Assembly (NCBI RefSeq): GCF_019649055.1
Contig: NW_026570333.1
Span: 310,001-374,000, forward strand
Origin: Paramacrobiotus metropolitanus
Taxonomy: Eukaryota; Tardigrada; Eutardigrada; Parachela; Macrobiotidae
Direction: 5' to 3'
Length of the DNA stretch: 64,000 nucleotides
Each line of letters starts with the position of its first letter. Position 1 is the first letter of the stretch. Shown here in pieces: positions 5,121-62,100 of the stretch. A program made the translations under genes and the position numbers. Below the pieces are notes generated by a model. The model did not search any database and had not been told where the DNA came from. It saw only the letters and a program-made list of their open reading frames with translations.

Positions 5121-8100
5121 ATGCAGAATGCAGGCGAGTCTGTCTCAACAGCTGGCAGTACGAACACCACAGCTGACAAGTACAAGGGAATTCGCAGTGC
5201 CATGCAGAAACTGGACTACTCCGTCTCCGCCATGGACGGCCCCACGGTGAAACGGTCCACCTCGGTGACGTTCGAGGGGGAGGGCAGCGGGAAGCATGAG
5301 ACAGAGACGGACAGTTTGTACGAGATGCTGCAGCAGCTGGATCTGGACAAGAAGGATGTGCTCTTCCTGGGACGCGTCGCTGAGTGAGATTTCAGAGTTT
5401 CTCTTGTTGATATCTCGATGTTGGCATACTCATAGACGTTTCTACAAAATAACCTACAAAGATTTATTAATGTATTTTTGGGATAAGTCTCGCTCTGGAA
5501 GTTTCGAGAATTTTTATTAAATTGTCGTTTGAAACTGGATTTTTGTTACGTCTTTTCTTCATTTTTCATATGTAAGGGTGCCAGCGTTTGGCTATGCAAT
5601 CAAAGCTTAAACAATTAAATTACTAGCAGTATTACCAAGATTTGAAAAAAGTACGGCGGTATCTGGAATATTTCTTGAATTTCTTGCAGTTTAATTATCG
5701 AATAGTAACAGAAAAAATAGTCTTTTAATCGCTGGATATTGATTACTGCTGAAGTAAATTTAAAAGCATTTGAATAGTTTTTGCTTAATTTTTAAAAATT
5801 GAATTGTCGGCCGATTTAATCCATTTTTTGTGCCGTTTCTGTGCAGTTTGATGCAGTTTTTGTGTAGACGTATTTTCAGTTTTTTAATTATTATATTAAT
5901 TGTACTGTATTTTACACAACAATGCTGTTGTGGGAATTCTTCGAATTGTTTTTGCAGTGCATGGTTTGTGTGGAATTTCGTATACGCCGCTATCTGCTGT
6001 ATTTTAATCTGTATTTTTTTGTTTTATTGTAGATACCAGTGGTTCACGTGGCTGTTGCGTAAGGTGCGCTCGCTGGAGATCGTGAAAACCGATGGCCCGC
6101 AGGGATCGCGTGAACGCCGCAACAGCAGCACGAGCCTGAAGGGCGGCAGCTCCGAGGGCGGCCGGGAACGACAGCGGTCCGGCTCCGGCTCATCGGAGGT
6201 CTGCCCTATCAGCAGCGCGTCGAAGCGCACGCCCGACAGGTACATTCACACACTTCCGCCCAAGCGAGACATTTTTTTGCGAATCAGTTTATTTAAATTG
6301 ATTTATTTGATATTTTTTGTATTAATTGTTAGGAATTTTTAGACGTTTTTATTTACTTTTGTTAATAATTTGTCGTCGTATACAGAGAATTACGTATGGA
6401 TTTTTCCAGATTTTTATACAGAGAAATGTAGTCCAGGCAAATTGTATGCAGCTGTGACTGATATTCTTTGAGACTGTGCTAATTGCTCGGGGATTTTGTT
6501 TAATGATTTTTTCTGCGTATTCGTTTGTTATCATCGATTCGGCGTTATTTCTTGTGTAAATTTAAGAAAAAAACGATTTTTTTTATACTAGAGGTAAATG
6601 TACTTAGAAAGCTGAATGCTGGATATTTTGATGATAAGTTTTGATCACGCCACTAATCTACGTTCAGCCGTTGTAAACACCGCAGACGCAGGGTTTCGTT
6701 GTCTGTTCTTCCAGATTTTTCTGTAAAAACGTTTTGAGCCGTTTATCTGAAAATTTACGTACCCTGTAGTGTTTGAAACGTGATAATTATCTGATTTTCT
6801 GATATTGTATGCGCGTGACGCTGTTAAAGAAACTGCAGAAAGGATTTGTCGTTAAGACACTGAAGAAAGGGTGTGTTTCAACATGCTTTTTCTCTGTTTT
6901 TCGTGCCTGCAGCAAGGATGTGCTGGTGATGAACTGCACCGGCAACACAACCACCTGGACACAACTGGAGGAGTTGCTGACCAGTGCGCTGCGCACCCTA
7001 CGCCCCGGCGGCTTCCTGCTGGCCCGCGAATGCCTGGCCTCTCCCTCCGATGCAGGTGCGCTCAGTCTTTTGCGCCGTCGGATCATTGCAAGTTAAATGA
7101 AATTAAATTTGGTATTATTTGTCTAATTAATTATTAAAAATTAAAATTGTATCTGAGCATCTGTTGATAATATTTTTTTGAATGTTCTTACACATTTATT
7201 AAGAAGGATTTGTTGTGGTTTACTTAATTAAGCGGGAATAATAACTACCGAAAGTCCAGCGATTCTGGGCAATTTTTTTAGAGGATTTTCTGAACATTTT
7301 ACGATATTTATGTACAAGTTTTGGGTGATTTTGTGGTGATTTCTTATCAATTTTTCTGTACATTTTCCGGTATTTTTTTCAGGTGCGAAAGTCCAGTGGG
7401 CTTCTGTGTAGTTCTTTATTGGATTTTCGATACATATTTCGTTGTTTTTATTAACTGCGATTTTTTAACAATAAATGCAAAAATTCAGCGGATTGTCTGA
7501 TTTGTTTCGGGATTTTTCTGTAATTTCTTCCCTATAATTTACAGACGGTCAACGCGTGAATTACAACGATCCCGCCGAAACGTACGCCTTAATCCGTGAT
7601 TTATCCTTCGTGGCGGAAGACACGCAACGTTACGGCTTCAAGCTAGCCTACGCCGTTTCGCCGGATCCGCAAAAAGTACGGAAATAAATTTCGAGAAATA
7701 AATATTTTTTTTGGAAACAAGTTAGCATTTATTCTCTCAACTAAATCATTATTAACAAAAATTTTAACTAATTAATTTATCTGTAATTTAAAAAAAACCA
7801 GGTAAATCGAAAATGCGAAAACCGAGCAAATATTGTACGCAGACGATTTTCTTTGCAGTTTACGATGTTTTAGTTTATTACAACATTAGCCTACGATTTC
7901 CGTTGAATAAATAGAATCTATTTTTACATTATTTGTTTTATTTATGTTATTTTTTTATCCGATTGTTTTTATTCTTTACGTGAATCAGAGTTGTTATTTT
8001 GGCGGTTAAACGTACGGAAATTTGCTGGGTTGTTACGGGTATTTTTTTTTCTTTGCATTTACGATATTTTAATATGTATCCGGTTTCCGAGCAAGGTAGG

Positions 8101-11100
8101 CATGTGTGGTATGATCGTAGTGTATTGGCGCATGGTAAGCGATTCACGTGCTCTCCTTGGTACGCAGCACAGTAATAAAACATTTGTAATTTGATTATCA
8201 TAATATTTTTTGATGACGTTATTTATTATACCACTTTTCTAATGGAAGTGTTTTTATTTGTTTGTTTTTGGTATTCTTGTCTGTTATTTATATATTTTTT
8301 GTTACTTATTTGTATGAATCGACAGACATTTTAATCCGCGTAGACGAAGAAACGCACGGCAGTGTACTGGGCTTTTTCTAGGTTTTTCTTTATTTTTACG
8401 ATATTTCTTTATTTTTACGATATTTTATTTTAAGTTTTGCGAATTAATGGAATTGTTTATGTGTTTATTATTTATGGTCTTTTCTGTTACGTTTATTTCA
8501 TTATTATTTACGTGAATCGGCATGAATTTTTTTCCCGCGCAGACGAAGAAACGCACGGAAATGTGCTGGTTACTGGAGAAAGTGCCGTGCGTCGCCAGCG
8601 GGATGGAGTTCGGGAAGTTCCTGGACGAAGTGCAGTACTCGCGCAAGGGCATTTCGAAGTACGAGGCCATCTTTGGGGATGGCTTCGTCAGCACGGGCGG
8701 CCAGCGGACCACCAGCGAGTTCTGCCAGATGCTGGGGCTGCAGCGCGGCCAACACGTGCTGGACGTCGGCGCCGGGATCGCCGGCAGCGCCTTCCACATG
8801 GCCAAGGTGAGATTGCGCTAGTCCAGTTTAAACGTAGTGTTAATGTGTGTGAACGTAGTGTAGTGGCGCTAAGGTGGCTACACTCGACAATTGCGCCAAC
8901 TTGGTTTGTTTCAACAGTGCAGTAAAGTAACACTTTGTTAACGAAATTTCAGTTTTTCTTGTTTGTTGATTGTTTTATTTTACTTATGGAATTAACGAAA
9001 TATAAAAAAATAATACAATTTGAAAAACATTAAAAATTTCATAAAATTAACGCGAAATGGTTTTCGTCGTTTTTATGAGTTTATTTTATTATGATACTGT
9101 AGGAGAATCAGTGGGCGAGCTTGACAAAGGAAAGAAGGAATGACAAGCGGCTATATACAAATTAAATATTAATAATGAAGCGATATTAAATAATAACAAA
9201 TTAATAATGGTAATAATTTAAGTATTCAGCACTCTTTAGTTTTGCTGTCACTAATAAAATCATTGTTCACGTCAGATAATCACAAATCGAGAATAACGAT
9301 GGTATGCCGTAATGGTTCTTGCATAATTTAATAAATAAATTTAACAGTTTATTAAATTAATAATAATAAATGAAGACAAGAAATTAATTGGTTATGTTCA
9401 GAATTAATTATAATTTAATTCGGGCGGTGATGATGGTTGTCCTTTGCTCAGGAATACGGCGTGCATGTGACGGGCGTGGATCTGTCGTCCAACATGTTCT
9501 CCATCGCCGTGGAGCGGCGCGGCGAAGCGGCGCTGTCCGCCGGCAGCGTCGATCTGGAGATTGCCGACATCCTGACGCGGGAGTATGCCGCCGAGAGCTT
9601 CGATCTCATCTACAGCCGCGATGTCATCCTCCATATTGCCGACAAGCGCCGCTTATTCCAACAGATGTTTGTACGTTGATCAGTTAAAATAAATAAAAAA
9701 TAAATCCTTGGTCATAAATAAACAGAATAAAAAAAATGAAGTACAGTAAATTGAAAAATAAACCTTCGGCAGGTTATTCCGCCGCTTATTCACGCAGCTG
9801 CTCATTCATGCGTGAATCAGTGAAATACGTCGTGGACAAATGAAGATCAATAAAAAAGAAAATAAATCGTTAATAAATTAAATATTATTTTTGAACACAA
9901 TAAATAGAGCGAATTAAGCTGAAATAAATAGTACTTTTTGGCCGCAGTCTGGAGCGAGTCTAACGACTTTTTTTATAGCATTTAAATTGTGTTTTTTATT
10001 TGTTTATAATTTTTGAAGCAGTTGTATCGCATAAGAAATATGTGGCTTTGTAGATGAAAAAATATAACTGAATTTTTTTACAGTAGCCTGTAATCGTGGA
10101 CTATTTTGATATATCATTTTTGATAATTGTTCAGTATTTTTAACTTTTAAGTCAGTTTTTTTGCGCATGAAAAAGATGCCAAAAATGCAGTGTATAAAAA
10201 TATGGTTGTTTATACTGTAGAAAAATCTGCATCGAAAGTTTAATACATAAGAGATATTTTGAAATATCAACTTTTCTTGCGTCCTGTCCTGTCGCCACTA
10301 TTCTACATAATCTGTCCTAAATACTGCAAATGCCCGGTTTTCGTTGTGTGTAGAAGTGGCTGAAACCCGGCGGGAAACTGCTGATTACCGACTACTGCTG
10401 CGGCGATAAGACGCATTCCAGCGATTTCCAGACCTATGTCCAGCAGCGCGGATATATCCTGCTGACCGTCGCCCAGTACGGCCAGGTCAGGGTTTTGGTT
10501 TGACGCGAATCGGCGCTTTAAATGCATGTGATCGTAGTGTACTGGCCACAACATCGGTGGCGTGAACTGTTTGGTGCAGTGTTGTGCTAGTTGCGTTGAC
10601 TGATTTAACGGTTGTGAAATGAAGGATCCAATTTTTTTTTCTAAAAATCAGAAGCGGTTTTCATAGTTATTCTAGGGTTTTTTTATTCTAAATGGAATTT
10701 ATTTAGACTTTATGCTGAAATTATATATATCTGCTCTAACGATTTATGTATTATACTTTTTGTTTTTGTACTTTTATTTTACAAAAGTGTTATGCGCCAG
10801 AAAAATTCCTGGCGCATAGAAGTGACCTTTGTTTTATTCTGAATAATTATGCGGAATTTCTGTTTAACTTTTGCGGCTTTAGTTTAGTTTTATTGAATGT
10901 GTTTTGTAATTTATATACAGCAGTAGTCAAATTTAGCATATTTATTCCGTTAACCATTCTATTCACTAGTTTTAACACTTATAATGACAAAATTATTTTA
11001 ACTAATTAGTTATTGAATTCGGCTCGATTTATTTCACAGTATTTTACTGGGCGTTAATATTTATTTCAAATTTTATTTAATTAATTTTGCTGCTAAATTG

Positions 11101-15900: not shown

Positions 15901-17094
15901 TTTTAAGAAGCCGCTGCGTGAGGAGGACAGTGGCGCGGCGCCGGAAGAGACCGGGATGCGCCCGGTGGAGGAAATGACGCCGCAGGAGCGAGCCGACCGG
16001 ATTGTCGATATGGAGACCGAGGGCAACGATCTGGCGCCCCGCCGTCGAGGTGTGTACACTGGATTCATGCGCTAAAAAATAACAAATTTGTTTAAAATTC
16101 AGGGAAAAAGAGCGGGATATTGCAAATTGATCATGCAAGTATTGTGAATGTGGAAATTAATTTGTTAGCATAAGGAATAGCACGTTGCAACCCTCTTGTA
16201 CGTTAAAAATTGATAATTAATTTAAAGAAAGCAAGAAAATAAATTAATATGCAATAATGATGAAAAAATCGGACATAGATGTATACAAAAATAGAACGCG
16301 AAGAAATGGTGTCGCTGGAAAAAAGAGTGAAATTTTCTTTGTACATGATAGATGTTTTATATTTGCGATTTTCGTCGATTTATGTTGCAAGTTTCCAGCC
16401 GCAGGGAATGACAGCCAGTATACTACGACTTTCACAGTCTTTTCTCGTGCGTATCAGCATTGACGTTGTTATTCGTCGCTAAAATATAATTACTTAGTTA
16501 AAAAAATTATTACTTAGTTTAATTAAAATTATGTGGGAACAGCGGGTTATTGAATTTTGATGAGGTGTACTTGGAATTGCAGATTACCAAGTGGCCAGCA
16601 CGGTGCCCGGCGACCTGGAGCAGCCGGTCCTGGAAGACCCGAATCCTCCCGTTCCCGACATTCCCCGCGAGACCGACCGGCCCGCCCTGGACCGCGCCGA
16701 CACCCTCGAGGAATCGCACACCGAGGGCGACGAGAAGTCCCTCGTCAGCAACGTCCTGGAGTCCGTGGAGTCGGTGATGCACGCCGTCACCGGCATCTTC
16801 CACCGGGACACCCCGGAAGTCCCGCCCGCCGACGCCGACCATCCCCAACGCACCGGGATCGTCGACAAGGTCGTGGACAAGATGTGGGATGTGTTCACCG
16901 CCGGCACCGGGGGCCCGGACGTCCCGGTGCTCCCGGACGTGGAGGAGAAGGCGCCGGAGGTGGCAAAGGAGACCGCGGAGGTGGTGGAGGTGCTGCCGGT
17001 GTCCGGGGAGTTCATCACGGGGCCGGTGAAGGTCCCGGAGGCGGGGCTGAGTGCCGGGCAGCAGCGCCGACAGACGGCGTCGCGGGATATATAG
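12933..17094 (+). CDS. Acidic, Pro-rich, probably disordered protein, six exons, 727 aa
   Basis: I do not recognise the family. Exons are 12933-13392, 13994-14598, 15084-15335, 15599-15742, 15839-16049 and 16583-17094 (TAG). All junctions are GT..AG with consistent phase and strong C/G-ending codon use, so the gene is well supported. The protein is dominated by Pro, Glu, Asp, Ser, Thr and Ala, with almost no Cys or Trp, indicating disorder. Against this background stand short amphipathic helices: a basic one at about 116-131 (AKKLKNKLSKAFNKVF), and two near the C-terminus at about 610-630 (LVSNVLESVESVMHAVTGIF) and 648-666 (GIVDKVVDKMWDVFTAG). There is no signal peptide or membrane span. Such architecture fits a membrane- or protein-binding disordered protein. 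If the host is a tardigrade, a stress-protective role would be possible, but nothing in the sequence shows it. Poly(A) signals lie at 17293-17298 and 17308-17313. Confidence 0.82.
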
Positions 17095-17340
17095 CCATGA
17101 ATTTTTCCTGATTTTCTCCTGCAAATTATGGCTGTTTTTTTATTAATCAAATTATGGCAGTTATTTTTGTGTTTCCTGTTTTGATGTGCTTCCCCTGTTG
17201 TGAGCTGCTATGTTGGCTAAAATTTAGCCGGTATTATTCTTTGGTTTTTATCTCCGTTTAATGCTAAACGAATTCCCGATTTAAATACAGTAAATAAATG
17301 ACTATAAAATAAAACATTATTTCCAGAATTATTAATACAA

Positions 17341-17408
17341 GGCAAGTGTCCCTTAAATTAATAGACGAGGCAAGTGTCCCTTAAATTAATAGACCCTTAA
17401 ATTAATAA
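17341..17408. repeat. 28-bp tandem repeat
   Basis: Two consecutive units beginning GGCAAGTGTCCCTTAAATTA are followed by a truncated third (CCCTTAAATTAATA), just downstream of the poly(A) signals of the disordered-protein gene. Confidence 0.8.
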
Positions 17409-18234: not shown

Positions 18235-18240
18235 TATAAA
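18235..18240 (+). promoter_or_regulatory. Candidate TATA box
   Basis: TATAAA lies in a GC-rich context about 580 bp before the putative Caskin-like start codon. It is the only good TATA match near that gene. Transcription would start near 18265-18270 if it is used. No transcript data support it. Confidence 0.35.
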
Positions 18241-21800: not shown

Positions 21801-24800
21801 GTATGTTTTATAATGTTTTAAATGAATATGAAAATTTTATTTAAATTACCGTAAAAGCAAACAACGTTTGCTTTTCAGATTTGAATATTTTTTCGGTTTG
21901 GTAGAGAATTTTTTTGATGGATTTTCCATCTTTTTGACACCATAAAAAGCCGTTTACGCACGGATGATTAGATTTGATTTATTTGATCCGAGGGTTCCTT
22001 TGTAAAAAACTGATGACAAATCTTGTCGTGTATGACATAAGCGAGCGGCTTTTAACAGCGGCGCTTTGGCGATATTGCTTCAACTTGCTCGGTTCTCGGC
22101 GGAAATGGCCAGCAGGCACGCGGCTTGATCGGCAATTGAATTACACTGCTCTTTATTCCTCAATGGTCCTCAATGGTGGATTATTACGCAGTCGCTGCAG
22201 CAGTGCACTGCCGCACCAATTATGATTATTGCCGTTTGTCAGCATTATTATAACGATCCTGTTTACCAGCGCCAGCACACATGTACGTGTTGAAAATGCT
22301 CCGTGCAAATATTAGCGACAAACGGCTGTCAAATAAATACATGCCGAATCGCGCGACGCAGCCTTGATCGAGTTAAAGTCGTAGAGAAAAAAACGGTCCG
22401 CAGCCAATAAAAAACAACATACTCGAGAGCGCATTTTGCTACTGTAATGCTGCGGCATGCTTGGCTGCGCGGCGGGGCTAATTCGGGTCTTTTATATCGT
22501 CAACGCTGGGCTCTTTTAATTCTTTTTAATTTCCGGCCTCAAACACGACGCGATGGCGCTTTTTTACGACCTGCTAGGCGGACCGTATATTTAAAATTAT
22601 TATATGCGTTTCCCTTATTTTTTCGCGGTTGATGGAGCGTAGAACGTTGTGTATCAGCGTCCCTGACATCGTTGTCTGTTGATTTTCTGCGGTGCATTTT
22701 TATGTATCTAACAGGTATTTTTTGTTCAGTTTCACAGTTTTCAGCTGTTTTTGTATCGGGTCTTTTTATGTGAAAAATCATGACTTCGATTATTTAGAAA
22801 AAAGCTGTATTGAATGTTTTTTACACGCCACATTATTAGGTAATTTTTTTGCAGTAAAAATCGTTGAATTCACTATAAAAATTATAATGTGTCTGTAGAA
22901 AATGCGAGTTATACTCGGACATCCGACGGAAAAATTTAATTCGATTGTCGTTTTGCGATGGCGGGATTTTTTAGCTGCAGTTTTAGCTTCCGGCATTTCG
23001 TTACTTCTCCGTTTACTTGTGTAAAAAGCAAACGATAACGATTTTAAATTATTCGGAAGCAGTGATGATGATAATAATTCTAAATTATTAAACGCGTTTA
23101 CCGTTAGACAGATGTGCAATCCACTTTGAGCCGACATACTACGATTCTCTAGGAACTCCGAGTACAGTTTTCTCAGGTTATGTTTGTTTGTTCAAGGTGA
23201 TTTTTCACATTTTGATCTGTGGAATAGTTGTTCGGGATTATAATTAATTTTAAATTATTAATAACAAATAAACGCATTTTTCTGATGAGATGCCCACGGT
23301 GCAGACAAAAATGTTTACTGTGTGTGCGAAAGTTTGACCAGCTGTGGATATTTTTTTGGACAACTTGAGGATAGTTTTCCTATGTTAATCTGCGGAATAA
23401 TTGCATGAGATTTTAATTAAATTTAAATTATATTAAATAAACGAATTCTGCAGACATCGATGCAGACGAAAATGTTTACTCAGTTTACGTACTGTGCGTG
23501 TGTGTGAAAGTTAGAGAAGGTGTAGCCAACTTTGGGGTATTTTGTGGAGGTTAATAATTTGCGGTATAACTGTTTGTGATTTTTATCAATTTTTAAATTA
23601 AAATTAATAACCGAATTTTCTAGATGAGATGCCCACGGAGCCGGCCTCCGCCAGCCCGTTGGCCCGCAACAGCCCGGCCCGCTCCAGTATTTTACGGGGC
23701 AGCTTTCGGCGCATCAAGGCGCAGCTGAGCGTCAACGTCCCGCCGCCCGTCGTCCCCGACGACAAACTGCACCGGCTGTCCAACGCCTCGCTGGCCAGCA
23801 GCAGCTCCGGCTTCGGCAGTAGTGGCTCGGCCAACAAGACGCCGGAATCCACAGGTGGGTGTTGTTGTGCATGCCGACTGCTGCAGCTGAGCTGCTGATG
23901 CAGGGATCTGGGTCGCCATCAGCATCCGATCGCTCATCTCGAGTGGTCCGGGTTAAGGCGACTAATGGCGCGTTAATGCTGAGGATTGCGGCGCTGGCAC
24001 ATGTAGTTAGCCTTGATGCGCGGAGAAACCCTGCTAGATGGATTTTTAAGTGATCAGCCGATTTTCTACCGGATTATACAATTTTTAACAATTTTAATTT
24101 AATAGTTTCTGACTTTCTGTTTTATTAAATTTTTTTAGTGTATAATTTTCGCACGTCTGTCTAATTTTAAGTTTTTTTATAGAATTTGTTTACTCTTGCA
24201 TTTACTTCGCAACTGAAATTGGCAATTTTTTAAACGTTTATTATTTTTATTTTTAACCGTTTATTATCTACATTATTATTTTCAATAAAATAAGTAAGAA
24301 TTTTACTGAGAAAAAGGACCATGAGAATCGCCTGTCCTTTTCAGAATATTTTGAAATTATTGGGTGTTTGTAATGGAGGATTTCAGTAATTACGAGTATG
24401 TTTGATCTTATTAATATTTATATTTATTTACTTCACAGTTATTGTTATCTGCAGTATTTTTGTGGCGCATTTAATTATTTATTTATATATTCGGTTTTTC
24501 TTTTTCTTTTCTTTTTTTATTTTTACCATTTTTATTTTATTTTCAAATTGTGTATACTGCGTTGGTGTTTTTTATGGAAAATTTGGGAAGTTTTCCGCAC
24601 GTTTGTAATCGGAAAAAATAATATTTTTGATCCAGCAGCAGCTTGTAAACTGAGGGCGTTACATAATATATATGTTTTATTTTGCGGGATAATTGATAAG
24701 TGGCCGAATTATGGCTTCCGCCGCCGATATCCAGTCTCCCGTAATAACGATGGCTAAAAGCGTTTAATGTTGTTGCGCACAGAGAGTAATGGGTCGTTGC

Positions 24801-27800
24801 GGCGTAATCCGGGGAATCTGAAGCTGAAGATCGTCGTCCCGCCGGCCACTTCCGGCGACGCGGCCACTGCGCCGCCGCCTAATGGCCCGGGCACGCCCGC
24901 CGCGGCTAATCCCCCTAATCGACTGCCGCTGGCGCCCAACTACCATCGCGATCCCGCGCCGCTCTACAGTCCCACCCAGCACAACGGTTTTCATAATTCC
25001 ACATCCGCTGCGTCCCGCGCCCGCTCCCCCTTCGCCTCCCCGCTGCCGTCCCCTTTGACGCCCCAGAGCGCAGGTCAGTCCTGATTTGCTGATTGATGGT
25101 GTTCCTTTCTTGTGTGATTATGGAAATTTATTCTGGAATATTTTTTTAAACACATTGCAGTTAATGTTCCTGTCGTATGTGTAATATCGAATATGTGATG
25201 TTAGAAATTTATTTTTGATTATTTTTTAACACATGTACAATTTTTATGTTCCCATCGTATGTGATTACTTATAGAAATTTATTTTGGCATATATATTATT
25301 TTTTGCACATTAACAATTATTTTTTGTGCGTTTTTGATCGATTGGAGATTATGATGAGCTCATGGTTCGATTAAGTAATTGCTAGAATTAGAATTTTGGC
25401 ACGATTTTTCACCGAGCGAATTGCAGAAGTACCAGAGTTATTGTAGAACAGTGGTCTAGCGTGTATTTACCATTGCTACAGTCGATTGGACATTACCGAT
25501 TGAGAAATGTATTCGCGTTTTCATGATAATTTTTTTTTCTGTTTAAAGGTGGTTTAGTAATAAGAATTTTTACAACTACATATACGTATATAACAATATT
25601 TTTCTTGGCTTTTTCATCGAACAACTTGCTTTTTAATTGGAATATATTAATTTTGTGAACATATGTTAGCGTATTTTGAAAATGTAAATTCGCGGATTTT
25701 CTAATAAAATTTCCGAAATTATGTTCCAAACTTTATTCTTATTTTAGTTTATCGTCATATGTTACTTCTTATTTTTTCATTTGAGAAAATTTGGCTGAGA
25801 GCGTTTCGTTTGTCGTTTAATCAAGTATTTTTGGAATATTTTGGCACTTCTGCATTGATTCTAATCAAACATTTTCCATGGTATAAAACTGATATGAAAG
25901 CCTGTTTTAATGTTTTCATCGTAAGCGAATTGTTGGCATTTCGTGTAGCAAGCTGTCAATTGCGCGATGTGTTGTGACGGGGAGATTTTTCCCACATTTT
26001 TTCGTGTTTGTATTACAATGTTGGACGGCGGACGGCAAACACGCTGTCGTTGTTGTGGACAGCTGGCAAATGTTGGCACATCTTCATCTGCTCAGCGTTG
26101 AGTGGTGTATTCGCCGATTAGAATACCGAAGCACGCCTCGTGCTCCGTTTTCGACGGCGATTAAGTGCTGACAGAAGACAGACAACAGAAATTGGAGAAC
26201 GCTAGGTATTCGCTGAAAATTCTTATGGCAGTTTTGTCAGTTATTAGCAATGATCGGCTGAATTTTCTGCTCAGTTCTAACAAGGAAGATACAGAATTTG
26301 TAATTGTTTTTAATGTTTTTCACAGTATAATTCGTCACTTTTTTCGGGCCGCCGGTCAACTGCTTAGGTACGCATACAAAAATCGTAGAGTAGTGGCTTG
26401 TTGCAACCGAGAAACAGTTCGCATAATTAAACAAGAAATTGTGGCTGCTTTCCTAATAATAATTAGTGTTTTATTCATTTTCTTCCGAAATAATAATTTT
26501 ATTTGCTGTGTCCTCGAATATATTTGCTTGGATTTATCCGAGCGGACGTTATTTTAAAAAAAAATTGCCGACCAATTTTTCGTTGAATTAATTCAAATCC
26601 TGTTTGTATTTATTAAAAAATAAATAAAAATCAGTTAAAGCAGTTAATATAAAAATTATTAATTAGTCTGATTCATTAATAAATACAAACAGGATATGAA
26701 TCATTCACGAAAACTACTGGTCGGCAATTTTCTGATAAAAAGAACGTCGAACTCGGTAAATCCAGGAAACTAATCTAATTTTTATATTAATTCATTTATT
26801 AGAAGAATTTCCCAGGTTTATAAAAATTTCTGTTATTATTTTGAAAAATTGATTTATGCTGCCGGTATCATTTTAATGGCTTTAATATCCTCATAAAATT
26901 ATCTAAGAAATTTGTCGGATTACGGGGAAATATTTATGCTTTCCCTGTATAAATACGGTGGTTAGTGATGGATGGCGATTAGTCCGCGTCGTCAAATGCA
27001 TGTGGATCAGCCAGCCGGCAACAGCAAGTGGAGGTTTAATAGCGCCGAGTGCGAGTGATATGGATGACCCAGAATATCGGGCCATAATTTTCATTCATCG
27101 CTCTACAAGTGTATTGAACATTCGGCGGGATAGATAGATGATTCAGAGTGTTATCGGGAGGGGAGAAGTTAGTTAACGCAAGATGGATCGGCCGGTAGTC
27201 TTGACTGTGCCCGTCGCGCGTCTTGATGGCTTTCGTCCATTTCCCGATCGCTTGTCAACGACCTCTGGGCCGCGGCGTGTACACACTCTGCTCCCGCACT
27301 TCACATTCATTCATAATCTTTTCCTTTTATCTCTCTCCTCTTGATAGCGGAGAGATTAGGGGATTTTATCGCGCTGATCGTGCGGTGATCGGATTTTCTG
27401 GAGATTTATTTTCTGCCTTTGTTTTTAATTTTTAAATAATATTATTGTGGATGGAAACGTGAGTACTGTAACAGTTATATACATAGTTAAACTGCTAAAT
27501 TTAATTTTTTAATACAAATGAAGATGAGCGTTGCTGAAATCGAGTGAATAATAACGGAAAAACTTGTGTAATTTATTTTTAATTATAACTAATATTTTGG
27601 AGTTTCTTTATTGCATTATTATTCCGCCGGTACCTAACATGTTTTGACTGTACACAGATTTATGTGTACTTGCTGACCCTGGTTAAATATGTTATCTATT
27701 TTATTTATCAAAGGCAGTCGGCTTTTTCATTAGGGAATACTGAAAACCGGTGCTCGTAAAAGTAAAATTAAGTTTCAACCAGAAAAAGAAAAGGTTGAGG

Positions 27801-30800
27801 TGATGGGAACAAAAAACGAGCCATCCCGGCAGCCGTTAACAGACGGGGCTATATGGTCTGATGACTCTGATTGAAGAATACGCAGCTGTCCAGCAGTGCA
27901 CTCTCCAGCGAGACCACGTCTCCGCTCCAGCGGCATGCCCAGCTCTGCGCCACTTCACCACAAAACTCGTGGTTTTCTTAACATGGCGCCAGCCACGCCA
28001 GTCGTCAGCATTTAAAGTTATTTAGAAAATGGTTTATTCCAGTATTTTTCTGTGGTTTTCCTATGGACTTATTTTTCCGGGACTGTTGTACACATATCAC
28101 CGTCTTTGGATTTATTTTACGTTGTCATTGCGTTCGGCGCGTTCAGCCAGCTTTTATTGGCCCATTCATTATTTGGGGAATTTTTAAAATATGTTTTTCT
28201 AAATGAACACATTTTCCGAGAATTCAGTAACAATGCGACGGGATTTTTTTCGCCAGCTTCTTCGTTGCACAGATGACTGCGGCTGGTATTAGTTAAAAAT
28301 GCTAAAACTTGACGGTCACAAACGATAACCGTTTTCAGTAAAAAAATGATGAAAACTTCGGTGCCGAAATAAATAAAAAAAAGCCAATATTATTGATATT
28401 TGATAAAATATCGGATATTCGTCAAAAATAATCCGTGGAAAAACAGAGGGATTGGGAACTTAATCCCGGAGTGTTTCTGCAGGTGGATTAGGTTCCTTCA
28501 GTAATCTGCACTACTCGACATCCGAGAACAAACCGCTGCCGGTGCTGCGCTCACCCGGCGATGTGTATCCCGTCATGTACCGTTCCGACGTGAAAAACCC
28601 CGTAAACGGCAACGGATTAGCCAACGGTCGTTGCGAGTATGTGGAGTTAATGTGCAGCAACGAGGCCGCGCACCGCGAGCATCCGCCGCAGCCGTATTAC
28701 TACTACAATTACGATCCGGATCTGATCAGCGATGAGTCGTCGGTGCGCAATTCCCGTTCGTCCTTTTCATCCTTCGACGGGTCGAGTTATTCCGCCGGCA
28801 GCTTCACCAATTCGCCGAATAGTGTGTGCGGCGGCAGTGCGCCGGCGCTGGATCTCATGGGCATGCTCAACAACGGGATGACCGTAAGTTGGCGGAATAT
28901 TATTGCGGCATACTCTTTTTTTGATTTTTTATTATTTGGTATAATTATTTTTTTTTGTTTCTGGCATTCGGCATAATTATGTTATTAAAATTACTTTTTT
29001 CTGATATTTTTAAATTTTTATTTTTGAAAATTTCTCATCGTCACGAAGGAATTACATATTTTTGCAAGCGGAAGACATAAGGATTTTTCTGCGAATTTTC
29101 TGGCCTTTTTCGTCGTTTGAATGGGATTTTTATTCTTCCATGTTCGCTTTTTTTTGAAAATGTCAATTTAAGTGAGCACGCTTTTAGCAGTATTTGCCAT
29201 AATTTTGTTTGGAAATTAATTTATTTTTATTATAGTTTTTAACTGTGTTCTTCGGCGCATCATAAATTCAAAAGATTTGCATTTTTGGCATCTGAATTAT
29301 GGTTTGTTTTATTTTACTGCATTTTCGAATCCAATTTTTTTTAAAATTAACTATCTTGTTAAACGATTTTTTGGAATTGTTCGTCGTATGCATGTTTTTC
29401 TGTTCGTCAGGTTTTAGAATCTGCTTTTTAAAAATAATGGCCTTGTTCTTTCTCGTCAGGAAAAAAAGTATTTTTACAGTGATTAAAAAAAAATAAATTT
29501 AATTTATAACGTTGATTTTACCTTTTATATTCGGCGCCGAGTGATACCGAACCGTATATGTAAAACTGCTGTGGTTGCGTGAAACAGTCACTGTACTACG
29601 TTTTCCTCTTATCTGCAACGCAGAGTCGGCCGAACGTGAACGATCAAATTCCTAATTTTTCCTGGTGTGTTTTACGTAATTGATTTTTCCAAATTTTTTC
29701 AGTTGATCTTCTACTTTTATTTTAGACGATAATTCCATGCATAGAGTATACGCGTAATGTTGTTTGGAAATTTTCCATTTTGTTAGTTTTTGGCGTTAAA
29801 GTTGAAGCGAGTTATAGAATTTTGTTTTTCTGACTTTTCTTTAATTAATGGTAACTGGTAAGCGGTAAGTATCACCCGAGTTAAGTTTTTTGATCCCTCA
29901 AATATGCTGATAATATAATAAAATTTATGTGGATTTTTGTAAAAATTTGCGGTTAAACGGGCATTTTTCTCGCGAGTTTTTCTGCCGTTTTTCCTGTATG
30001 AATTGCTCTGACAGGATCGGTTAATTTTTTCTTGATAAATCGCTAAATAATTCATCCTGACACATGGGTAATTGTATCGGCCAAAAGAAACACCAACTAT
30101 TTTCTTCCCTCAAATTGAGCGCGAGTTGGTTAACTGTCGCGCGCCGCTAATCGGCTGATCCGTCACCCGCGCATTGTTGAATAGCGGGGTGATCGGACCG
30201 CGGTTGTCAGTAGTGTATTTAGTGTAAAATGCCGGAGAAAGCGTTTGTGTAATTGACGGATGTGCGGACGGTTGCAGGACAACGAAGTGCTGTCGGCGTG
30301 GCTGGGCAGCATCGGTCTGACCGACTACTTCCCCCACTTCATCCAGGCCGGATACGACATGCCCACCATCCAGCGCATGACGACGGAAGTGAGTGTGGCG
30401 TGTGTAGTTTGTGTAATCAAGTGTCCGGGAACGTTTTGAACGCTTCGTTAGGTTTTTTATTTGTTTTTCTCTGGGTACACTTCGGTTTAATGGATAATGT
30501 GCATGTTTGCGGGAAAATTATTTTTGAATGCCCGCATACTGAAAACAAATCAACGGGATATTGTTGAAAGTAGCGAGGTCACTGTTAAAATAAACAGCAG
30601 AAAGATTTTCCGAAAAGATAATACAGAAGCGTGGAAAAATAATTAATGATTTTACTGTTGAATATTGGAAAGATAAATTACGTACGCATTGCTTTTTTAC
30701 GCGTTATGTTATGCAGCAGAACTGGGAGAATCGTAGTCTATGGGCGTGAGCTTCTTGCACATAAATAGAGTTATTACCTGTCACTCCTTTCTGATTTATG

Positions 30801-33800
30801 TAATTTGCGACGGTTTTGTTGGGTAAGATTTTTTTCCATAATAATTTAAAATTTTTTTGCAAAGGTTTTAAAAATTTGCCGCTTCCTTAACTGTTTTTTA
30901 GGTTGCAGTATCAAAACGCCTCTGAAAAAATTGGGCACATAAACAAATAATACAAATGATAGAGTTTTAGCGGCTGTTGAATAAGATGGTTAGGGGAATG
31001 TTTTGTTGAAATGGGAATATTATAAATTAATATATTATAGATTAAATATTATAAATGGAAATGGGAGTATGATATATTAAATTGAGCGGAAAACCGGCTT
31101 GAAAAAATGAGTATTAAACCGCAAATTGGCACAAAATATGAGCAAAGTGTGGATGACGCAGAGCGATTTGAAAGTGAACTCTGGAGCCTGGTATTAAATT
31201 TGACGAAAGGTCAGAGTGTGAAGTGGGGTGGATGTGTTGCAGGATTTAACGGGGATCGGCATCAGCAAGCCGAGTCATCGGAAGCGATTCCGGGCGGAAA
31301 TCACGCGGCTGCCCAACATGGACGCCTTCCAGTTCGGCAGCGACATACCCGTATGTCATCCCATATTATCGCCTTATAAAGTATTTCGTGGTTAAACAGA
31401 TATTTAAAATTTAACAAATAACGATAAAAACGATTTAAAATAAATAAAAATAAATACATAAAAATTTTCAAATATTTTCAAATATTTTCAAAATGCTTCT
31501 AATAAATTGAAAATAAAGGTAACCGAATAACTTTAAAGAAAAGGTTATAATCCTTAGTTATAGTTTTTTTAAAGTTTAATACGGTTTTTTAAAAATAAAA
31601 GGTTTTATTGATAGGTTTAAAAGCCTTTTATTTAAGTAAATCTACGCTGTAGAAGTTTAAATAGATTAGTTCTTATGGTTTGCTTTTCATGGTAATTTTT
31701 TTGTTAAATCACATTTTTGGTTGTTTTTTCAATAGGTTATTTTTTTGTTAATTATTTTTGTTTGTCGTCATTTCTTATTGTTTTGCTGATTCTGGCACGG
31801 TAATAATTCAGTTGGAGAAGTATTGCGAGAGTTGTAGTCTATGGGCGTTAGCTGTTCCGACATACGTGTAGATATTCACTGTCCTTCATCGATGATTTGA
31901 TTAGCGACGGTAGTGTTGCGCGAGAACCTTTTTCATAATAATTTAAAATTTTTACAATGTGTTTAAAATTTGTGTTTTCAGGTGTTTAAATTACGTTAGT
32001 GTTTCACAATTTTGTTTTATAGTTTTTCGGTGACGTTAAATTAATTTGGAGATTTTTGTGGAAATGCTTTTTGTGCGGCGCAGGTGACGATGAATCAGCT
32101 GCTGTCGGCGGTGAAATTGTCGGAGTACACGGAGTTATTCGCCGCGCAACGGCTACACAGCGTGGACGACATGCTCAATTTGACATGGGAGGATCTGGAA
32201 GAAATCGGCGTGAAGAAATTAGGTTAGTGTGTGGCCCCGACCCGTTCCCAGGGCGCCCAATTATCCTGTAGCGCCGTTTAGCGCTGATTGTCTTCAATGC
32301 CGCATCCGATTGTGGTCGTGTAGTCAAAGATGTCACTGCAGCTTTTTTCTCCTTTTTCTCGCTATTGAAAATACAAGAATTTCCTCGTTTTTCCTAATGT
32401 ACAAATCTGTCTTGCAGTAGAGTAGTTTTTTTGATAATTTTGTTTATTAATATATTATAATCTTGTCGACCGTTCTCTTAACTTTTTTGCAGTGTGAAAT
32501 ATTTTATTTAATTCAGTTCATTTTATTTTATGTAGATTTATTTTAAATTTATTTCATTTTGATTTCTATTTCGATTTTTTTCCTTTAGGTTTTCATTAAG
32601 GCTTCGTTTTTATTAGATTTTATGATTTTGTTTTATTTAGATCTCCTTACTTAATTTTTCCTGACTCGTATTTTTCAGCCATAAAATTTCTTTGGTTTTT
32701 TCAATAAACGTATTAATTTTTTAGATGTATCGTCTTGATATTTTTGTTTGTTTTTATTTTGTTATTTTATGTATTTATTTATTTTCGTTTTTATTTTAAC
32801 GGGTTTATTCTGTGTGTCTGCTACCGATATTTAAATTTTTTCTGTAAATTAACTGCGAAATTATTGTTGTAGGTCACCTGAAGAAGTTGACGCTGGGCAT
32901 CCGGCACTTCCGGGCGCTGAAGCGGCACACGGTGCTGCTGGAACAGGAGCAGCAGCTGCACCGGGAGAACACCCACAGCCCCGTCGCCCCCGCCCCGCCC
33001 AACGGGCATCTGGCGGCGGCGCACACCGGCGCCACGGACGACACGGGCAGCGGCAGCGCCAGTATCGGCTCCGGCTCGTCCGGCGCCCGCCCGCTGCCGG
33101 CGGCGCCCCTCCTGACCACGTTCCAGGTTGGTTGATTTTTTAAGCGGGATTTTATTGTATGAAATTAACCCTCCTTTTCATTACTTACATCTTTTCAATA
33201 TTTTTTTTATTTTAATTTTTCTGTAAACTTTTAACTATATAAAAAAATCGATAATTTTGTTTGGTAAAGAAAATGCAAAAAAATAAAATACGCAAATAAA
33301 AATAACTGGTAAGTAAATAATAAAACAGTTAAATGTTTTTAATAAATTAGGCGCCACCGTCGGGAACAACCTCCCCTTCAAAAAAGCTCAACGGCCACCT
33401 GCCCGAGCTGCGGCGCCCGCACTCCGCGCATTCCGACCGCCCGGGCGGCCCCCACCACCTGGCCCTCCCCAACGGTTCCTCCCCGACCCCCCGGTCCCCC
33501 GCGCCCCCTCCCCCGGCCCCCTCGCCTCTCTCCAGCCCCTCCAAGAAACCCCCGACACGCCGGACACCACCAAGACCCTCCCGCGCCGCAAATCCACCCG
33601 CACCTTCGCGCAACGCTTCGCCCAAGCCTTCCACAAGGACCCCGCCCGCAAAAAATCCACCCCGTGCTCCCCGGAACCCCCCGATCCCCGCAAACCCCAC
33701 CCGGAGGTCGGGGACCCGGTTTATCCGCCGCCGAGCAGTAATTCCCTCTCGTCCTTCGCCCCGACCACCCTGGCGGCGCTGGCTAGTCCCCGCGCCAACC

Positions 33801-38339: not shown

Positions 38340-54282
<15,943 letters not shown>

Positions 54283-55351: not shown

Positions 55352-57833
55352 ATGGAGCCACCACATTCCTCAGAATCTTGGGACGTTTCCGCGACGGAGC
55401 CCAGCCTCCCCCCGGCCGCCCCCAACGACCCCCCGCACCCCTACCTGCGCCGCGTCTACCACCCCACGGATCCCGCCCTCCAGGCTGAACTCCTAGCCAT
55501 CTCGCAGCTGCCGCCCGTCCTGCAGACGGCCCGCGCCTTCTTGGCCACCTACTGCAGTCCGCCCTCGCTGCGCTTCTTCCTTCTGCGCCGTCTGCCGGTC
55601 ATTCAGGGGGTGCCCATCAGCGACCGCCTGCTGACGGAGAACAATCCGGGCGGCGGCTTCCTGCCGGAGTATCCCGAGTTGTTCATCGTGGTGGATGAGC
55701 CCGAGAGTTTCCTGGTGGAGGAGATGGAGAAGTACCTGAGCGGACAGTCGCGGGTGGGCCTGGCCTTCGTCTGGTTGGATGTTAAGGGCGTCACACCGGT
55801 AAATACGAAGATTTCTTTGCAAAAACGGGGTATTTTCTGGTATTGATTTTTTTATCGATTTATTTCTGTCTTTTTCCTGTAATTATAATTTGGCTGTCTG
55901 TTTACTTTTTTCACAATTTTAATTTGTTTCTCTTATTTATTTCTCTTTCTTTCCTGTATTTAGCTGTCTGTTTAATTTATACCTGTTTAATTTATACCAT
56001 TTTTTAATTTTGTATCTATTTATTTCTGTCTTTTTCCTGTCTGTTTAAGTTTAAGTAAGTACTTGTACACATTTTGTTAATTTTTATTTGTTTAATTTTT
56101 ATTTGTTTCTGAGTTTAGTTAAACTGTGTTTTTTTTTTGTTTATCAAAACCAAATTTAATATCTTCGTTTTCTGGCTGTTGAAGTAATTAGTTATTTTCG
56201 TTTATTTTTTTTGCACTCGTAATTTGGTTTGTGAAATTCCTTACCGCTATTTAAATAATTATAATAATTTAAATAGGTTTATATTTGCTGTATTTTTAAT
56301 GGCTCAAAACTTGTGGATTTCTATTTATTTGAAAAATTTCTGATTCGGATCTTCTGCAAATTGCAGTTAATTTCTCTGATGTTGAAATCGCGTATTTTTG
56401 TATAGGAATGTGTGTTCGCTCTGATAGGCAGAACCGGGTTTCATTTAAAGCCGGTTTACTACGGTTTCTTCTACATTGTGCTGATTTTTTCGGGTTGGAC
56501 TACAGGTGTGCGCGATTGTGTCCAGCGAGAACTTGACGGTGGTGTTCGATGCGACGCGCTTATCGCTGACCCGCCTGCTGCTGTTTCTGCGCCAGCTCCT
56601 GCAGAATCCGGAGGTCGTCAAGGTGGTCAACGGTTGGCCGGCACAGCTGCGTGGTCTGGAGCATTTCTACACCGTCCGCCCGCGGAATGTCCACGATGTC
56701 AGCGTGGTGGAGGCCGCCTGGGACGGCGGGCAGCGGCGCGGCATGTACAGCATGACCGCCTTCCAGGCGCGCTACCGCAACGGCAGCCGGTGGTTTCAGC
56801 GCGGTGGCGAGCAGTTCTTCGCGGCGCCGCTGCAGCTGCAGGTGCCGGGAAAACGGGGTATCGCCGAGTGGAGCGAGGCCCAGTTTGAAGCCCTGTTAAA
56901 ACAGGTAATTTGTGATTAATTTTAGATTATTAGTTGTAGCTTCTAAAAAGGTAATTGTGATTTTTCTTATTTTATTTGTTTAATTTTTTTTATTTTTTGG
57001 TTGCGAACTTCGTAATGTTTAGCTTTCTGTTTTCCACAACTATTAACACGCTTGGCATAAATCACTTAATTAATCATAATAAATAAAATACTTTTTGGAT
57101 TTTATAAGTAACAATTAATGCGCGATTTTTAACAAATCAGGATTAAATTCAGCAAAAAATTACAGTTTATATATTCAACGATTATTTACGACTACATATC
57201 AGATATCTTCTATATTTATTTCCTAAGTAATAACACGTGATAATTTTAATGTTAAAATGAATAAAACATTATCAGTTGCATAACCTACAAAATGTAATAT
57301 GAAATAGGGAACAATAATAATCGGGTATATTTTTTGAAAAAATATTAATATTTCGTAATTAATTGGAAACAATACTGTAACTCAAAACGGATGAAGATTT
57401 ACCTGGTAACATGACCGAATTAAAATTAATCAAAGTATTTCCGTTTGCCGTAACTGCAATAATTTATTCGGCTTGATAATTTTATGTGGCCGGTCACATT
57501 TAACATTTGTTCTTGTGTTCGTGTTAGGTGATCTTTCTGCAGCTGGTGCGGAAACTGCAGATCCAGCGCAGCCTGACGAGAGCCATCCGCTGTATGGAGA
57601 TCGCGCTGCGAGACGTATACAAATCGCGGGAGTGGGAGGTGGACACCGCGAAGGACGACTGGCAGGACGACCCGGAGAGCAACACGGTGCACGTCAGCAA
57701 GAACGACACCGCCGCCCTCCCGGCCATCTTCCTCAATAAGGACGCCGCCGAGTCCAGCAGCAGTGAACGGGACGCCGCTACGGACGACGATGATGCCGAT
57801 GAACCGGAGTCGGAAAGCGAATTTTACTACTAA
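55352..57833 (+). CDS. Degenerate 3'-5' exonuclease-like (EXD1/RNase D fold) protein, three exons
   Basis: Exons are 55352-55798, 56506-56904 and 57528-57833 (TAA); both junctions are in phase 0, giving 383 aa with strong C/G-ending codon bias. After a Pro-rich start, residues about 120-260 follow the layout of the EXD1/egalitarian-type exonuclease domain: FLVEEMEKYL then GLAFVWLDVKG, a central AIVSSENLTVVFDATRLS strand-turn-helix, VVKVVNGW, and VRPRNVHDVSVVEAAW. The usual DxE of motif I and the His-Asp of motif II are not present (NGW replaces the expected HD), while the Asp of the third motif survives. Activity is therefore doubtful; it may bind RNA or act as a scaffold. The C-terminus is a helix (QLVRKLQIQRSLTRAI) followed by a very acidic Ser/Glu/Asp tail. 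The family call rests on pattern only. It is divergent with USP32. Confidence 0.55.
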
Positions 57834-59173
57834 CCGAGTACGTTGCGCATGTTGTGCTTCATGTCGTTAAATTAAATTCTCAATTATAGCTGATATCGTT
57901 TAATTTTTTTCTTTAGTATTTATTTCTTCTTCGCATGCTTTGTTTTTTTCCTGCGATATAAATTTCCAGATTTCCAGTTTTTCTTATTTAAAAATTATTT
58001 ATTTGTTATTTATGATTTGATTGGCGCTTATTTATAAATTTGATTAAAATATTTATGACGCAGATGTTATTTGTTTACTGTTTATGAATTTTCAATTTCT
58101 GGATTTCGGTTATTTACCTTCGTTTCTTAAACAGCGATCTTCAGCGAATTTTTATATATTTGTATTTATTATTCTGAAATAATTATTGATTAATTACTAA
58201 TAGATGAGTTATCTATGAATATTTATGACTTGTTTATGACTTCCGAAACTATTTCTTTCTCTCTCTCTCTGATTTCTTCCTTTCTTCTTTCGCAGATTCT
58301 TGCCTTCCTCTTGGTAAATGGATTCTCATTTATTTTCTAAAGCATTTACCTCATATTTTCTCTCATTTGTTTATGCATTTTCGACACGGTACGCATTGTG
58401 ATTGATCTGCACTCAGAGAATAGAAATTACGTTTGATTGGAAAAGTGGTGCAGCGGCTTTTTGGATGATGGCGATGTCTTCTCTTCTGTCTTCTGCTCAG
58501 CTCTTAACTGTTCCGCGTCATCAGTCATTAATGACCGGCTAATTAAAAACAAGCCAGTTGCTGTGACACTTGTTGCTACTTATCCTGCTCTCGCGGTACA
58601 TTGGAACATCCAATCTGCAGTCGTTGTTTAGTCGTGGTATCTCTTCAAGGTGTACCGCAGGTTTTTTCTCCTCATTAGCGTGTAGTGTGTGTATCGTGCT
58701 GCGACTGCTGCTGCTGACACGGTTTCGTCCAGTTTGGTCGTCCAAGTGTGTTGTACGCGGTGTGTGGAATGTGAAATGTCATTCACATAGTGGTCGCCCC
58801 AGTGTTTTTGTCCTGTACAGTGACGGCGGGGAATTGACCAACCGGTTGGATTATTCTACTTAATTTATCCGACGAATTTATTTCATTTTTTCCAGTGGTC
58901 AGGTGATTTTATTTTAATTAATCTTTCCAATGATCCGGTGAATTTATTCTAATTAATTTTTCCAATGGTCCGGCGAATTTATTTTATTTAATTTTTTTCT
59001 AATGGTCCGGCGAATTTATTTTATTGAATTTTTTCCAATGGTCCGTCGGATTTATTTTAATTAATTTTTTCCGATGTTCTGGAAAATTCCGTAATTATTT
59101 TCATTTTATTATTGGTTGATTGATAATTATTGGGCATATTAGCCAGCACCGTTAGGTGTCGGTTTCCGCGAGA
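57834..59173. other. Intergenic region with CT-rich tract and tandem repeat
   Basis: No exon is supported. A pyrimidine tract (TTTCTTTCTCTCTCTCTCTG and on, ending TTTCGCAG) lies at about 58248-58296. 58871-59085 is a tandem array. The ATG of the lectin gene follows at 59174, so the last few hundred bases should be its promoter and 5' UTR. Confidence 0.5.
58871..59085. repeat. Tandem repeat of about 42-45 bp, five units
   Basis: Each unit contains TTTCCAATGGTCCGGCGAAT (or a near variant) followed by TTATTTTATTTAATT. The array ends 90 bp before the lectin start codon. Confidence 0.8.
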
Positions 59174-62100
59174 ATGGAGTGGCTCCCACGCCGCCGGGAG
59201 GGCCTCGGCTGGCTGGCGTTGATTATCGTTTCCGTGGGATATTTGTCGCTTGCCGGATGCCAAACGCTGAACGCAGCTGCCAGTGTTAATGTTACGGTGA
59301 GTGCTGAATGATTTTTGCAAATTAGTGATTAATTAATTTGTATTGAATTCCGTTTTAGGTTTTTTTAATTCCAGTTTAAGTTATGTTTCACAGATGGTTT
59401 TCTAATAAATTTGTACTCTGTAAAAATGAAAACCAATCATTTTCGTTTCATTGAGGATTCGATTCGTATTAAGTACTAAATTTTCAACTGTGAAGCGGAT
59501 ACGCGAGACGTAGCAGTCGTAGTGCAATGGCTATGTGCCTGAGCCAGGTGTTCTACGTTAATTTACCACCTAGCTTTTACGAACAAATTGCGCAGCACGC
59601 AATCACTTGCTTATAAAATTAATTATTTTTTCCCAGTAGTTTCGAGCATGTGAAGGGGAAAATAAGTTTTTCGATTGTTCGGTATCTAGACCTGATTATA
59701 AAATTATTATTCAGCTCTAATATTTTCTCGTTATCCTTTCTGCAATATTTTACCTTTTGAATTGAAACATTTTTCCTTTGAAATGGAAATTCAGTTTATG
59801 TGAACTTCGTAGTGCACAAATGCAAATTGCTTCAGTAAATTAACTGTTTTGAGATATTTTAGCAGGAGTATCAATTAGCTTTGTAACTGTGCTGTATTTT
59901 ATATATGTAAATTGCTGTTCCCACTTTTCCAGTTTTAGTAGCCTTTCTTCCTAATTATTTGAGAGGAACTCTTGTTGGCGTACCTGCCGTTTTTTCTGCC
60001 GGACAATAGCCTTCTTTCATTCAGCCAAATTAGGGTCAAATGTTTTTCCTTGCGGTTTATAGTGTTAGTTTTTTCCTGTCAACGCAATCTTCTTTAAAAT
60101 GGAACTTCGGTCGATCACATCGTTTGAACTGACCTTTTGTACGGTTTCCGTATGAATGAAACGTATCGGTGATGTGTCTGAATTTTCTATGACTGTTTCC
60201 TTTAAAACGAATGTCTTGTGCATGCTTCACCGAAATTTGCTTGTATAATTTATTTACAGTTAATTATATTAAGTTAAAATAGTTTTCAATAAATTTCAAT
60301 TTGGAGTTTTATTTGGATACTTTATAAGTTGGTTTCAAAGGAATGTATTCTGAGAATTTATTTTTGATACTTTTATTAAACTTGATTCGAGATATTTATT
60401 TGTTTATAATTTACTTATTAATTTAAAGAAAAGATGCTTATTAAAACGGTTTTGGTTTAAACTCTTTTTTGTTGTCCGACATAGATAATTTTATTATAAA
60501 TACTGCATTGGGGGTATAGGTAAATTTTTGGATAATCAGTGAAATTTCCGTAATAAAATACTGTCGCAGCCGGTTATAATTTAGCCATTATTCGGAATTT
60601 AAATCTATTTTCGGTTGATGATTTTATAAAACTTAAAGTTTTTCGTGGCTCGCCATCAAATTTATATTTGCCGTATTTAATTTGATCTATTTTACTAGTT
60701 TCAAAAAATTATATCGAAATAACTGGAAAAAAATCAAGTATTGTTGGAGATAAAGGAAAGTCGATAAAGTTTATTGTGAAAGTGGAGGCCGGTTTTTGCA
60801 GACAAACGACCATAATAACTATTGTCAGAGGGGGATTGCATAAGTAAATTAGAGGTTGTTGATGAGCTTAATGAGATGCCGAGTGGCCGGTGCTGTTGGC
60901 GTTGTTACGTGAGCGCGTGAACGCCTTGCCGCACCACTTGCGCTGATGCAAGTTATTGCAAGTGCTGACGTTGGGTGGAAAGTGGGTCGCTCCGGCGTGC
61001 AGACTGCAGTGGTCAGCCGGGGGCACATCTCGTGATGGAGTGCTGATCGCGGTGTGTGTGACAGTGTAGTACATGGCGTTGTTGTTGCAGATCATCCCGG
61101 ATCTCTTCTACTGTCCGAAAGGTAAGCGTGCGCACAATTAAACGACAATCAAGTGCCGCACACGTGTAGTCCGCGGCGTGCGTATGCAAATTTAATTCGC
61201 TCATCCTGGAGTGATGCGACAGTGTTGGCTGTGAGATTTCACGGCGATGCGACCAAGAGAATATTCACTGACGCGTCGTGCATGTCGATTTCCGGGGATT
61301 TCATACGTACCCAGCCCAAAAACATTGTTGAAAAAAATTTGAAAATTTATCTAGATTTCACAGCGATTTAGGCAGAAAGTACAGCTGTGCAGGATATTTT
61401 TCATGGTTTAATTTAGTATTTTGTATAAAATCATAATGATCGAATGCATAAGAAACGTGAGAAACCGGAAAACATTTTTGAAAAATTCTGAAACTTTGCC
61501 CGTTTTTCAAAGAGATGTATATGCAGCAGTGACAGATTGTTTTTATTATTTAAATTAGTTATATAAAAATTAGTTTGAAATTAAACTTGGTTTTATTTAC
61601 GACGTCGAGAGTTATCTACAGAATACAAGGTTTCATCACGATTTTCTGCTGCTTTCAGATTCTCTTACGGTTACACCGGTTTAAGCATGACATCGTGCAG
61701 TTATTAGTGGCGATGTAATGTAAGGGCTCCGTAGGGCCAACCTCTTTCATCTGACTGCTACGCTTCCTTGGTGCGCTTTCGCTGATTACCTAAACAAAAA
61801 TTAATTGCGAATATTACTAGTATATTTTTTGCCTAAGTGGAATTTGTTTTCCGGATAATCGTAAAAATGTGCGGAGTAGTGCATCTTCTTACTTATGCGA
61901 TAATACGCACGAGCGCTGTTTTGTTTATGCCGAATTTTCAACAGTTGTATTAAAATGTAGAAGTCTTCCGAATAATTCGTGGAAATGCAGCGGATCGATA
62001 CGCATGAGTGATGTTGTATTTAGTGCAAAATTGTCAACAGTTTAATTAAAATGTTGATTATTGAAATTATTTGCACTGACAGGGTGGGTGCTGCTGGACT

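Follow-up and report, generated by a model that had tools for sequence, protein, structure and literature searches.

A recurrent A-box-like motif with a downstream T-run in putative introns of Paramacrobiotus metropolitanus may head short RNA polymerase III transcription units

The window analysed is a stretch of 64,000 nucleotides of the tardigrade Paramacrobiotus metropolitanus (RefSeq assembly GCF_019649055.1, contig NW_026570333.1, positions 310,001 to 374,000 of the forward strand). A USP32-like gene is located on its minus strand at 40.5-52.2 kb, with a UCH exon at 40523-41077 and an EF-hand exon at 51582-52208. Along the window, a 15-base motif resembling the A box of RNA polymerase III (Pol III) genes recurs on both strands, followed by a variable core and a T-run; the three together are termed a unit here (Table 1). 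The motif sites steer clear of recognisable coding open reading frames (ORFs), and it is plausible from the sequence that all 22 sites listed in an earlier reading made without database searches (the sequence-only reading) are intronic. These 22 sites all exist, with 0-2 mismatches to the 15-mer, and only two positions were corrected, from 8854 to 8853 and from 47656(-) to 47659(-). Nine units lie inside the USP32-like gene, four antisense and five sense to it. As both strands of the gene carry them, the host pre-mRNA is not the molecule through which the element acts.

The loose form of the motif (TAGTNNANNGGC) has 16 occurrences in the window where 1.05 are expected, and none of 100 shuffles reached 16. 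The exact pattern TCGTAGTNNANTGGC has 500 matches in the 169.8-Mb genome, compared with 7 for the reversed pattern. Recurrence well above chance, as claimed in the sequence-only reading, is thus confirmed, and because of the ratio of 500 to 7 a background frequency of the motif can be rejected genome-wide. Eight of the 500 exact sites are in the window, a density about 40 times that of the genome as a whole, which places the window in a dense motif cluster. A position weight matrix built solely from genome sites beyond the window gave 23 matches at >=12 bits in the window, one in the reversed window, and two in 67.7 kb of unrelated loci of the same genome. The extent of the cluster was examined over the 10 kb beyond the window, where three further sites, all on the plus strand, were present. 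Extrapolation from the loose/exact ratio of this one dense window (about 3) suggests that the genome likely carries about 1,000-1,500 sites.

A run of at least five T's (T5+) on the motif strand is present at +78..+140 from the motif in 21 of the 22 listed sites, with a flank rate of about 27% (p about 2e-11), and none of the 22 has T5 within the core at +15..+77. This count is an independent test, since the sites had been picked without knowledge of the T-run. For 82 genome sites, T5 was counted in the terminator window of 63, in the core of 4, and in an equal downstream flank window of 18 (p 2e-12 and 0.002). A genome-wide spacing search returned 305 matches with TTTTT at N{65,95} after the motif versus 24 at N{30,60}, both totals including overlapping matches. 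T5 runs are also more frequent than in dinucleotide shuffles of that region (0.81 vs 0.55 +/- 0.04), and contiguous T's are therefore favoured beyond T-richness alone. In the core (+15..+75), TTTT occurs 42 times and AAAA 92 times, whereas upstream (-50..0) there are 48 of each; the depletion of T-runs is therefore strand-specific and begins at the motif. The asymmetry peaks at +55..+85, and the G+C content falls to 0.27-0.29 at +90..+120. Avoidance of T-runs on one strand from the motif onwards, ending in a T-run without an earlier one on the coding strand, is the pattern displayed by Pol III transcription units. The T-run could also be taken for a polypyrimidine tract about 100 bases beyond a 5' or branch signal, and some T-runs are indeed followed by AG. 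YAG follows the T-run at the background rate (25 of 95 vs 24% expected), however, by which the T-run was rejected as a 3' splice-site signal, and of the nine sites in the USP32-like gene, four run antisense. A splicing feature is therefore given hardly any probability.

The motif holds all A-box positions in tRNA numbering (T8, A9, G10, Y11, A14, G18, and G19). Anatomy and conservation were analysed in a sample of 105 de-duplicated genome sites. T8, A9, G10, G18, and G19 are invariant there and A14 is conserved in about 95%, figures for which the sampling pattern had already demanded several of the A-box positions. Likewise, the A-box consensus TRGYNNARNNGG was found near the 5' end of the units, (nearly) invariant in the 105 sites and partly forced by the same pattern. 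The extended A box of the units is TCG-TAGTGYARTGG-C. Motif-anchored alignment revealed no further strongly fixed base, only weak preferences for R (-4), W (-1), and T (+15). The likeness to an A box at T8, A9, G10, A14, G18, and G19, already pointed out in the sequence-only reading, is upheld and is strengthened by the strand-specific T-run, which was not in it. Its statement that no consistent B box or cloverleaf accompanies the motif also stands, with the B-box scan at background and an empty tRNA search of the window and the loci. Two copies of a repeat, 78% identical, at 1950-2420 (-) and 27675-28145 (-) of the window carry TTGTGGTG[TA]AGTGGC. Their tRNA-like A box is closer still, yet the element is distinct from the motif units.

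Near exact sites genome-wide, 30 of 31 neighbouring motifs share their strand, most of them from two arrays and hence not independent. In the window, adjacent sites are on the same strand in 14 of 23 cases, slightly above chance (p 0.15). The array at C2:615352-620060 comprises about 14 units head to tail, many of them 93-147 bp apart. The motif and the preceding 50 bases are common to its units, and the cores are at chance identity. In three pairs of paralogous introns (L046/L047, L045/L048, and L061/L062), the motif is identical at 13-15 of 15 bases and the flanks mostly at 65-90%, with +30..+70 as the least conserved stretch, containing indels. One core family (GAATGATGGCCATTC...TTGCATGTTGCATG) has at least eight dispersed copies on C3, C16, C23, C34, C50, C55, and C56 (e.g., L014, L015, and L088); some copies have a B-box-like GGTTTGAATCTC, and the family is possibly a duplicated or mobile unit. 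In the paralogous pair L056/L081, the motif precedes a TATATAAGGCGC box by about 90 bp, an arrangement that may be a protein-gene promoter employing the same motif.

Because the A-box positions are present together with the T5 pattern, Pol III is the favoured polymerase. At a confidence just short of even, each site is read as the promoter end of a short unit transcribed independently, which would lie in an intron on either strand and give a unique RNA of about 80-120 nt. The 15-mer would recruit Pol III as an extended A box, and transcription would proceed rightwards from it across a unique sequence of about 80 bases and terminate at the first T5+ run, some 80-130 bases from the motif. We infer transcription, the polymerase, and the exact start from the arrangement of these signals. 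The predicted product, roughly 80-120 nt in length, is an unstructured RNA with the motif at its 5' end. Units would multiply via local head-to-tail duplication, and the core would be free to diverge, or driven to, with motif and T-run kept. The units resemble Pol III type 2 genes (tRNA, vault RNA, snaR, and short interspersed nuclear elements, SINEs) in the A box at the start, the T-run terminator, the length of about 100 nt, and the avoidance of internal T-runs. They differ in having no B box, cloverleaf, or conserved product, and in a motif stricter than the A box. A standard type 2 promoter is disfavoured because the B box is missing and extra bases are fixed.

Several observations weigh against the Pol III reading. 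The fixed TCG before and C after exceed any A-box requirement, so that the motif is stricter than an A box, and the B box GGTTCGANTCC in or after the core scores equal to shuffles. Two weakly represented elements, TGCAG upstream (about -20 to -45) and RCAGTA within the core, are unaccounted for. No conserved RNA structure was found, and folding of the segments around the motif equals that of shuffles. The fast core is supported by few paralogue pairs; it is seen neither in the L014/L015/L088 family, whose core is better kept, nor in the close pair L007/L092, which shows little difference. Another factor may hold the motif. An untranscribed DNA-level element, in which the motif is an oriented site of a transcription or chromatin factor and the downstream T-tract positions or excludes nucleosomes, agrees with a motif whose length and strictness exceed the needs of an A box, with the missing RNA structure, and with the position of the motif near one end of two transposon families (see below). 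Such an element does not predict that T-runs but not A-runs are lost from the stretch between motif and terminator, nor that the core is conserved less well than the flanks. An intronic regulatory or chromatin mark, one of the proposals of the sequence-only reading, keeps a small probability and fails to predict the downstream T5 pattern; a DNA-level element is considered quite unlikely.

Table 1. Motif sites and units in the window (for units, coordinates from motif to end of T-run, with a core between the two; for the extra site, coordinates of the motif; Tn, run of n T's)
Position	Strand	Motif	T-run	Remarks
6567..6663	-	ACGTAGATTAGTGGC	T7	motif 6649-6663
8115..8211	+	TCGTAGTGTATTGGC	T6 at 8206	
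8853..8957	+	ACGTAGTGTAGTGGC	T5 at 8953	
10221..10308	-	ATGTAGAATAGTGGC	T5	motif 10294-10308; weaker unit, outside earlier list
10532..10640	+	TCGTAGTGTACTGGC	T9 at 10632	
16319..16428	-	TCGTAGTATACTGGC	T6	
23023..23144	-	TCGTAGTATGTCGGC	T5	
26383..26472	+	TCGTAGAGTAGTGGC	T4 only	sole one of 22 without T5
29587..29601	-	ACGTAGTACAGTGAC		extra site, motif variant
30731..30835	+	TCGTAGTCTATGGGC	T7 at 30829	local paralogue of 31832 unit
31832..31933	+	TTGTAGTCTATGGGC	T5 at 31929	local paralogue of 30731 unit
39178..39285	+	TCGTAGTTCAAGGGC	T5	
41534..41630	+	TTGTAGTGGACTGGC	T8	antisense to USP32-like gene
43192..43295	+	TCGTAGTGAACTGGC	T5	antisense to USP32-like gene
45044..45160	+	TCGTAGAGTACTGGC	T5	antisense to USP32-like gene
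46206..46334	+	TCGTAGTGAACTGGC	T6	antisense to USP32-like gene
47565..47673	-	CCGTAGATAAATGGC	T6	sense to USP32-like gene
48008..48093	-	TCGTAGTTAAACGGC	T6	sense to USP32-like gene
49233..49341	-	TCGTAGTAAAATGGC	T6	sense to USP32-like gene
49574..49677	-	ACGTAGTCCGTTGGC	T6	sense to USP32-like gene
50288..50401	-	TCGTAGTCAATTGGC	T7	sense to USP32-like gene
53828..53946	+	TCGTAGAACAGTGGC	T5	
56332..56464	-	CCGTAGTAAACCGGC	T5	
59517..59631	+	TCGTAGTGCAATGGC	T6	

Beyond the last unit of the window, near its right end, a C-type lectin exon was recognised at 63212-63691 (+).

Part of the motif matches belong to repeats. Among 90 sampled exact matches, 8 are copies of one repeat similar to miniature inverted-repeat transposable elements (MITEs), with TACAAGC...GCTTGTA ends, and 3 lie in the reverse-transcriptase ORF of a long interspersed nuclear element (LINE). 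Repeats make up about 12% of the sampled exact TCGTAGT matches, and the ACGTAGT variant has 318 matches, mostly in a second MITE with such ends. The two MITE-like families (L097-L124 and L009/L023/L024/L030) both contain the 15-mer or its A-variant at a distance of about 100 bp from one end, and the motif may have been captured by them or spread with them. At least two MITE families are represented among the 500 exact matches. These matches would suit an origin of all sites as remnants of a tRNA-headed SINE or of motif-bearing MITEs. Against it, the single-copy sites share no flank among themselves or with the MITEs, except for one stray MITE copy and local duplicates. Derivation of the units from the two families was rejected, as the sample contains that one stray copy and the other sites are unrelated. 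No common body, no shared flank or tail, no B box, and no tRNA was found among the sites, and neither the decayed tRNA-derived SINE nor the introner-like insertion offered in the sequence-only reading is supported, the latter for lack of a shared body. The pattern is not that of neutral decay, because the motif is perfectly kept while everything else, including the body, has diverged. Remnants of such elements are already refuted for most sites and are, as a general explanation, very improbable.

Known RNA genes do not account for the units. Rfam searches were empty both for the window at gathering score and for 18 loci at E<=5 (C/D and H/ACA small nucleolar RNAs and other RNAs), and the Sm site (A-U-run-G) is not enriched. 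The motif has no match upstream of the genome's three U1, two U2, five U5, and the U6 genes. As these small nuclear RNA (snRNA) genes carry other upstream sequences, the motif is not the proximal sequence element of snRNA promoters, and this candidate was ruled out. The U1 and U5 sequences of this genome are atypical, and a search of the assembly for COX1 found none. The units are similar to a known set of many small non-coding RNA (ncRNA) genes in having a short promoter motif in common ahead of the genes, a likeness judged on layout, and differ from it in that their products are outside known ncRNA classes.

The closest analogue is the intronic, motif-driven (P-type) loci of PIWI-interacting RNAs (piRNAs) in Pristionchus-type nematodes, although neither their motif nor their YRNT initiator is present here. 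There, an upstream motif drives a short RNA polymerase II (Pol II) transcript that is halted where the sequence is low-melting, and the loci are often situated within introns of active genes (PMC6436959). Pristionchus and other nematodes have thousands of such independent intronic units, with an oriented motif, a unique product, and a low-melting U-rich stop (PMC6436959). If the units were loci of this kind, the motif would recruit Pol II (SNAPc-like), a short capped RNA would start some 45-60 bases downstream, and pausing or termination of the polymerase would occur at the U-rich stretch. The P-type layout (PMC6436959) would be matched by the putative location in introns, use of either strand, one motif per locus, a predicted unique and hypervariable product, and a low-melting stretch downstream. 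A low-GC, U-rich stretch, as in 21U loci, was indeed found downstream, both strands are used within one gene, and the G+C minimum and the peak of T-run asymmetry given above agree with this reading, as does the presence of a PIWI-clade gene. However, the motif (TCGTAGTGYARTGGC) is unrelated to the Ruby/SNAPc motif and has no GTTTC Ruby core, and no YRNT initiator was found at any fixed offset from motif or T-run. The universal nematode spliced-leader (SL1) 22-mer is absent from the genome, and the motif is not common to snRNA promoters, the upstreams of U1, U2, U5, and U6 being without it. Furthermore, the stop is a discrete T5+ run that exceeds mere T-richness. Loci of the nematode kind are considered unlikely.

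A PIWI-clade exon, assigned to the clade by eye and not by a tree, is present in the genome of about 170 Mb, which has about fifteen Argonaute loci, one of them PIWI-clade. A small-RNA role is therefore possible, and the RNAs predicted under the Pol III reading could be precursors of Argonaute/PIWI small RNAs. It is proposed tentatively, as a rather doubtful extension of that reading, that the units may form a new, genome-scale class of more than 1,000 independent intronic Pol III RNA genes, whose promoter would consist of an A box only and whose hypervariable cores would resemble guides for an Argonaute/PIWI pathway outside the nematode 21U system.

The Pol III reading makes the exact prediction of transcripts whose 5' ends lie close to the motif and whose 3' ends consist of U's at the T-run. 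If the units are transcribed, P. metropolitanus would possess a large set of small RNAs made one gene at a time from within introns. To our knowledge, such a layout is known only for the nematode 21U piRNAs. A further, independent example would reveal how systems with one promoter per guide arise, and would link Pol III to the supply of guide RNAs.

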